A stretch of 64,000 nucleotides of DNA, from positions 2,542,001 to 2,606,000 of the forward strand of contig JBANAY010000004.1 of assembly GCA_037952775.1 (NCBI GenBank), given 5' to 3'. The notes under the pieces are model-generated. The model was given only the letters and a program-made list of their open reading frames with translations. It was not told the origin of the DNA and did no database searches. This document shows positions 3,868 through 4,523 of the stretch, in pieces. This stretch comes from Clonostachys chloroleuca. Its lineage: Eukaryota > Ascomycota > Sordariomycetes > Hypocreales > Bionectriaceae. Positions within the stretch are counted from its first letter, which is position 1; every line of letters starts with the position of its first letter. The position numbers were made by a program, and so were the translations under genes.

Positions 3868-4523
3868 TTATTCGACCTTGCTCTCAAAGTTCTCGCCCTC
3901 TACCAGGTCGGGGATGTCGTCCTCATCATCACCCTTCTCACCCTTCTGCATGTTCTGGTAGCTCTCGGCGAGCTTTCGGAGGGAGGCGAGAGAGTCGGGG
4001 CCGAGCTGGTTAAGAATGCCGGGAACAAGCTCCGTGAGCTCCTTGTCCTCGCCGTTTCCGTAGATGGCGAAGGTGTTGTGGGGGACAGCGGCATGAACTG
4101 AGGAAGCAACGAGTTAGCAATCTCGGTCGCACCATCAACCAGAAAAAAACGCAGGGTTCCTGTCATTACCCTTGGGGGCAGCGAAGTGGATAACGTTGCC
4201 GTCGGACTTGAACATGTTAACCTCCTCGATAGCCTGGATGGGCTGGGTGCCCAGCTTCTTCAGGGCAGCCTGGAGCTTCTTGTCGTCGGCGCCGGAGCGG
4301 GCGGGCGCACGCTTGACCTTGCGGCGGGGGGTACCCTTTCCACTGTTCGACCATGTTAGACGTAGGGCTACACGCGGAATATAAGTTCGAGAGTCGCAAT
4401 AGAAACATACCCTATGCAACAGGTCAGTACACTCTCAAATTAAAACAGGTATTCGCCAATTTCCAGCATACCGATTCGGGCACCCTGGCCGAGCTTCTTG
4501 AGGCGCTCCTGAACGTCCGCCAT
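3868..4523 (-). CDS. egd1: Nascent polypeptide-associated complex subunit beta, with a 1-nt microexon
   Basis: NAC-beta binds the ribosome exit tunnel with NAC-alpha and shields nascent chains. Coding parts on the minus strand: 4523-4472, a single base at 4411, 4342-4170 and 4097-3868. They sum to 456 nt, or 151 residues. The N-terminus (MADVQERLKKLG), the conserved GKGTPRRKVKR block, the NAC domain (IEEVNMF, NVIHFAAPKV) and the acidic C-terminus (DDIPDLVEGENFE) are clear. The base at 4411 is flanked by two complete introns: 4471-4412 (GTATGC...CTGAC...TAG) and 4410-4343 (GTATGT...CTAAC...CAG). Only by keeping that one G does the frame give ARIGGKGTPRRK, the form seen in NAC-beta/BTF3 proteins. 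Splicing 4472 directly to 4342 would frameshift. The family call is secure; the microexon is inferred from the sequence. Confidence 0.92.

Follow-up and report, generated by a model that had tools for sequence, protein, structure and literature searches.

The window analysed, a stretch of 64,000 nucleotides from Clonostachys chloroleuca, carries on its minus strand (4523-3868) the gene egd1, which on re-splicing and translation gives a predicted NAC-beta protein of 151 amino acids. NAC is a ribosome-bound chaperone, and NAC-beta, its beta subunit, is encoded by an essential translation-chaperone gene. The egd1 product matches the NAC domain of Pfam (PF01849, E = 1.8e-23), and this domain and the ARIGGKGTPRRK block are both present in the spliced protein, which places it in the NAC-beta (EGD1/BTF3) family. 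The preliminary description of the locus gave a total of 152 codons, which is right if the stop codon is counted but not as a protein length.

Regarding gene structure, exon 1 of egd1 (4472..4523; this and all following parts of the gene are on the minus strand) is defined by sequence and frame, runs from ATG to ATC G and is followed by intron A (4412..4471, 60 nt), which has the donor GTATGC, the branch site ACTGAC and the acceptor TAG. The single G at 4411 is the predicted one-nucleotide exon and would form the middle position of the first Gly codon (GGT); it is needed for ARIGGKG and has comparative support. Intron B (4343..4410, 68 nt) has the donor GTATGT, the branch site CTAAC and the acceptor CAG, and the third exon (4170..4342), supported by frame and by the PF01849 match, starts with T GGA AAG. 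Intron C (4098..4169, 72 nt), an ordinary intron seen in the sequence, serves as the control junction in the comparisons below, and the frame places the last coding exon, with its TAA, at 3868..4097. The end of exon 1 at 4472, both introns and G 4411 were thus reproduced at the positions and on the strand first proposed. The signals of intron A agree with the consensus that PMC6616335 gives (GURWGY / RYURAY / YAG), and the branch site of intron B (TCTAAC) has one mismatch to RYURAY, at the first R.

The spliced exon sequence of egd1 has one match in the genome, egd1 itself, and neither a retrocopy nor a second copy carrying the spliced form was found there; likewise, the interval comprising intron A, the G and intron B has its sole genomic match at egd1 and no copies elsewhere, in searches whose first pass may miss some matches.

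Immediately upstream of egd1, and in the same orientation, is a CBP4 domain (PF07960, 2e-16; 5529-5747, minus strand). Convergent with egd1 is a gene with an adenosine-deaminase (editase) domain (PF02137; 2444-3569, plus strand); the gene encoding ribosomal protein L24e (PF01246; about 1140-1664, minus strand) is also a neighbour, and a 756-aa open frame with Sel1 repeats (PF08238, 9.6e-40) occupies 8223-10493 of the plus strand. In the public models P0083, P0103 and P0113 (Colletotrichum, Verticillium and Dichotomopilus) the CBP4 and NAC domains are fused in one protein, and because these three join both domains, the CBP4-egd1 neighbourhood is probably conserved across relatives. The fusions themselves are probably another consequence of an egd1 exon 1 that is hard to place.

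Reading frame and splice signals around G 4411

Under canonical splicing, G 4411 is required for the conserved frame containing ARIGGKG. As the preliminary description had stated, a direct join of 4472 to 4342 that omits this base shifts the frame and gives 44 residues, out of frame, and reading through intron B meets a stop that ends the product at 31 residues; retention of intron A gives 27 residues. The G is flanked by a canonical acceptor and a canonical donor (TAG|G|GTATGT), with branch-like sites on both introns. Enumeration of single introns over the first 210 bases of the gene (GT-AG, GC-AG or AT-AC ends, at least 20 nt, C-terminal frame kept) produced 42 frame-keeping candidates, none of which yields ARIGGKG. 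The earlier claim that only G + G + T yields Gly-Gly therefore holds for canonical intron ends but not beyond them, since three introns of 128 nt with the ends GT..CA, TA..AG or AT..GT produce an mRNA identical to that of the micro-exon form. A fully spliced cDNA reading 4472-4411-4342 would for this reason be indecisive, the non-canonical 128-nt intron giving the same mRNA letters.

Two further AG-N-GT sites are present in the interval, at A 4433 and T 4431; taken as one-base exons they give Asp-Gly and Val-Gly, with first introns of 38 and 40 nt, respectively, and were rejected. Recursive splice sites are zero-length exons. The interval contains no zero-base AG-GT, and with one base between acceptor and donor the site at G 4411 is not a recursive splice site in this sense.

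The layout was compared with 20,000 dinucleotide shuffles of the interval in which the outer ends were kept fixed. YAG-G-GT with both halves of at least 45 nt arose in 147 shuffles, the same with a GURWGY donor in 8, and the full layout including both branch sites in 1 of the 20,000. Across the genome (59.4 Mb), a scan with six patterns, each combining a branch site and an acceptor with one base and a donor, detected 33 sites (12, 1, 6, 2, 5 and 7, with two overlapping pairs) vs. 69 in the reversed-pattern controls (7, 10, 8, 14, 17 and 13), and the first pattern alone exceeds its own control (12 vs. 7). A strict context test, demanding open frames on both sides that are linked by the extra base, was applied to the 13 G-exon sites with GTATGY donors and retained egd1 only, with exactly introns A and B as claimed. 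A looser test on all 33 sites retained six more. Two of these (L022 and L010) sit within long unspliced frames, three (L023, L024 and L037) give spliced products without a Pfam match to E 0.1, and L027 has only a sub-threshold Zn_clus match (0.085), its frame continuing by eye through the supposed donor; all six were rejected as one-base exons. Within the six donor and branch-site patterns scanned, a one-base coding exon is rare in this genome and egd1 is the sole convincing case, while one-base exons with other signals may exist.

The junction in homologous NAC-beta proteins

Three protein searches returned 4682, 2664 and 4809 homologues, and the best 120 of each, amounting to 271 distinct proteins, were divided by source tag into 89 RNA-like entries (jgi, lgn, ena or merc tags only, plus one insect-named UniRef entry), 7 of mixed source and 175 genome-only models (NCBI, UniRef or nr tags only; P0135 also carries metaclust). 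From the source tags, the frames that stay open through the intron positions and the short contigs (where stated, about 600 to 3,400 bases long, with the exception of P0071, up to 15,518) we infer that the RNA-like group consists of transcripts. Among the homologues bearing names, those of Clonostachys (Sordariomycetes, Hypocreales) are the closest.

Gly-Gly is present at the junction in 88 of the 89 RNA-like proteins, which are those of other organisms (87 by pattern and P0256 by eye), and in all seven proteins of mixed source. Among the genome-only models it is present in 23 of 175, the 152 broken ones being spread over seven class groups, vs. an intact intron C control junction in 172 of 175. 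Clustering of the collection at 90% identity leaves misread proteins in more clusters than correct ones and inflates their share, so that 152 of 175 should not be taken as a per-genome frequency; the contrast of the broken junction with control junction C and with the RNA-like group stands despite the clustering. Of the 152 broken models, 53 have changes in exon 1 itself and are little informative. Gly-Gly models are ambiguous in another way, since they may reflect either correct annotation or a lost intron.

By class and order, the genome-only models with Gly-Gly number 4 of 70 in Sordariomycetes without Xylariales, 4 of 4 in Xylariales, 0 of 23 in Leotiomycetes, 2 of 19 in Eurotiomycetes, 7 of 23 in Dothideomycetes, 3 of 27 in Lecanoromycetes with a few others, 0 of 3 in Orbiliomycetes and 3 of 6 in Pezizomycetes. 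The five Xylariales listed (P0080, P0088, P0105, P0106 and P0120, one of mixed source) all have Gly-Gly and serve as a natural control, a pattern which suggests that one of the two introns may have been lost in this order, simplifying the gene.

The errors in the broken models are of several kinds. The public model P0002 of Clonostachys rosea IK726 (159 aa) corresponds letter for letter to egd1 with 4472 joined to 4367, and carries ARIALRLTWSNSGKG where ARIGGKG is expected; the cause is a false acceptor TAG within intron B (4368..4370, minus strand). The Clonostachys byssicola model P0013 has the same insert, a translated piece of intron. In 42 broken models a one-residue insert G-X-G is found, X being T in 16, D in 10, I in 8, E and H in 2 each and S, K, A and N in 1 each. 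Such inserts are expected if a gene finder, with no way of linking ATC G and N GGN, placed the start of the intron at donor positions 5-6 (GT or GC); the four bases so added would equal one base modulo three, and X would stem from donor bases 3 and 4. The donor bases behind X would be AC, GA, AT, CA, AA and GC, and egd1 itself gives ARIGIGKG when positions 5-6 are used as the donor. As the insert fits this misuse, exon 1 probably ends in ATC G|GT in these species too, with a direct join that is probably likewise one base short.

In a further 18 broken models, G-Y-V/I/A follows directly after Arg-x, as would be expected if the first intron had been removed and G + GTA(T/C)G.. then translated onward. 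These comprise 10 models of Sordariomycetes, 4 of Leotiomycetes, 2 of Eurotiomycetes, 1 of Dothideomycetes and 1 of Chaenotheca. Of the longer inserts after Arg-x-Gly, 17 of 54 start in this way, vs. 4 of 849 remaining insert positions (binomial p 1e-26, a value that ignores kinship such as that of three Pyricularia).

Single entries also deserve mention. The sole RNA-like homologue without Gly-Gly, P0236, reaches GKGTPRRK through a stretch that looks unrelated and is perhaps a retained intron. The Metarhizium models P0026 and P0030 are misread at the junction, each differently, and P0011 has the same first 18 residues followed by Gly-Gly. P0011 is filed under the firefly Photinus pyralis and is 91% identical to the fungal NAC-beta studied here; it is probably a fungal contaminant transcript in an insect transcriptome, for which Metarhizium is not the sole candidate source, because QAGRIG also occurs in two Trichoderma models. 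For relatives' DNA carrying the pattern, the prokaryote and viral collections gave 81 and 16 pattern matches, respectively, none of them confirmed.

Weighing of the readings and order of splicing

We regard it as very likely that NAC-beta is spliced through a predicted exon of one nucleotide, G 4411, with an ordinary short U2-type intron on either side. Joined directly, the neighbouring exons would lose the reading frame, which the G likely restores. This one-nucleotide exon was also the reading of the preliminary description; it is the best supported, and the comparative data strengthen it well beyond the single sequence. The arrangement is probably ancestral to most Pezizomycotina, a depth of conservation that is read from protein sequences only. 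The broader proposition, that the one-base exon has been kept since the Pezizomycotina ancestor and that NAC-beta models are widely wrong because of it, we hold to be likely, though with less assurance than the exon itself; the public models of many relatives fail at the same spot. If true, no known exon of minimal size would be older or more widely shared.

The best-surviving alternative is a single 128-nt intron with one of the three pairs of non-canonical ends and no micro-exon, to which we assign a small probability. Its mRNA would be identical in all three cases, and Gly-Gly in transcripts is compatible with it. However, such odd ends would be needed at one spot in many classes, and the interval holds instead the full canonical layout of acceptor, G and donor together with both branch sites that a single shuffle in the whole set matched. 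The 18 models with the G|GTA(T/C)G signature, from several classes, separate the two best, because a non-canonical single intron needs no internal AG-G-GTAYG.

A stwintron, in which intron A would interrupt a splice element of an external intron (for example of the [D1,2] or [D5,6] type), is considerably less probable still. In its favour, this filamentous fungus has two short introns in a single place that probably leave one after the other, and the [D5,6] stwintron of rtnA has been described across Pezizomycotina classes (PMC6616335). However, intron B is complete and contiguous (4410-4343), with intron A one base upstream of it and only exon positions -2/-1 of its donor split, so that the introns lie side by side and the initial likening of the arrangement to fungal twin introns does not hold. 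An assembly error, with a base missing or extra near 4342, 4411 or 4472 in a gene with one ordinary intron, is scarcely credible, as P0002 and P0013 share the same translated intron piece and gene models from many independent genomes fail at this junction too. Equally remote is a direct 4472-4342 join as a regular product whose frameshift switches NAC-beta off, which the canonical sites would permit and which could coexist with the main reading, but of whose occurrence the data analysed here give no sign.

For the one-nucleotide exon, introns A and B would each be recognised singly, by intron definition. Their lengths are near the fungal norm (for F. graminearum, PMC12940212 quotes a median of 56 nt), and if, as is probable, they are recognised as introns, the exon itself would need no recognition. 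The acceptor TAG of intron A and the donor G|GTATGT of intron B have overlapping footprints; simultaneous binding is therefore hardly possible and the introns are probably removed one by one. In the simplest order intron A, being transcribed first, would leave first, joining ATCG to G and leaving GG|GTATGT as the donor for intron B; the intermediate lacking intron A and retaining intron B would read 4472-4411 and then 4410, i.e., ATCGG + GTATGTTTC. Removal of intron B first would also be chemically possible. The mechanism would resemble a recursive splice site that retains one base, and the out-of-frame 44-residue product of a direct join would presumably be destroyed.

If this reading is true, a one-base exon is not necessarily the accident of one genus and can persist across a whole fungal subphylum, and in a housekeeping gene, where accurate splicing is required. 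It would also account for an error that recurs in public NAC-beta proteins shortly before the ribosome-binding motif RRK, and argues that gene finders should be allowed one-base exons. As a well-expressed gene, egd1 would make it possible to test in laboratory fungi how the spliceosome deals with an unrecognisably small exon and in which order the introns are removed.

Relation to known one-base exons and composite introns

Single-nucleotide exons were initially called very rarely documented, and they are indeed rare in print but already known, even in Fusarium (PMC12940212). The egd1 exon apparently joins this tiny kind as its most widely shared member; no report of a NAC-beta micro-exon was found in the open-licence literature (for the broader listings, in titles and the starts of abstracts). 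The one-base exon of Arabidopsis APC11 resembles that of egd1 in consisting of one base between two introns, in being needed for the frame and in being misread in public annotation, but is in a plant, is an A and is proven by cDNA and base change, whereas the egd1 base is a G predicted from sequence (PMC4674806). Closer to egd1 is CYP621A of Fusarium, with 18 supporting reads reported, which its authors describe as the second such case and the first for a fungal gene (PMC12940212). Both genes are from filamentous Hypocreales and have AG-G-GT with the G within a Gly codon, and most models of both are wrong; however, CYP621A is an accessory P450 of Fusarium species, while egd1 is a housekeeping gene with signs of the exon across most sampled classes of Pezizomycotina (PMC12940212).

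Single-base exons in snoRNA host transcripts of the Candida clade, for which the order of removal is discussed, were reported earlier than CYP621A (PMC5033589); they share with egd1 a fungal single exon base between two introns, but are non-coding yeast transcripts with no reading frame at stake (PMC5033589). Stwintrons, of which that of rtnA is present across nine classes of Pezizomycotina (PMC6616335), likewise involve two short fungal U2 introns and consecutive removal, but are nested, whereas the introns of egd1 are adjacent with one exon base between them (PMC6616335, PMC9024468, PMC5639578). Recursive splice sites are similar in that the acceptor abuts the donor and the first splicing step creates the donor for the next (PMC5033589), and differ in that in egd1 one base remains in the mRNA and sets the frame.
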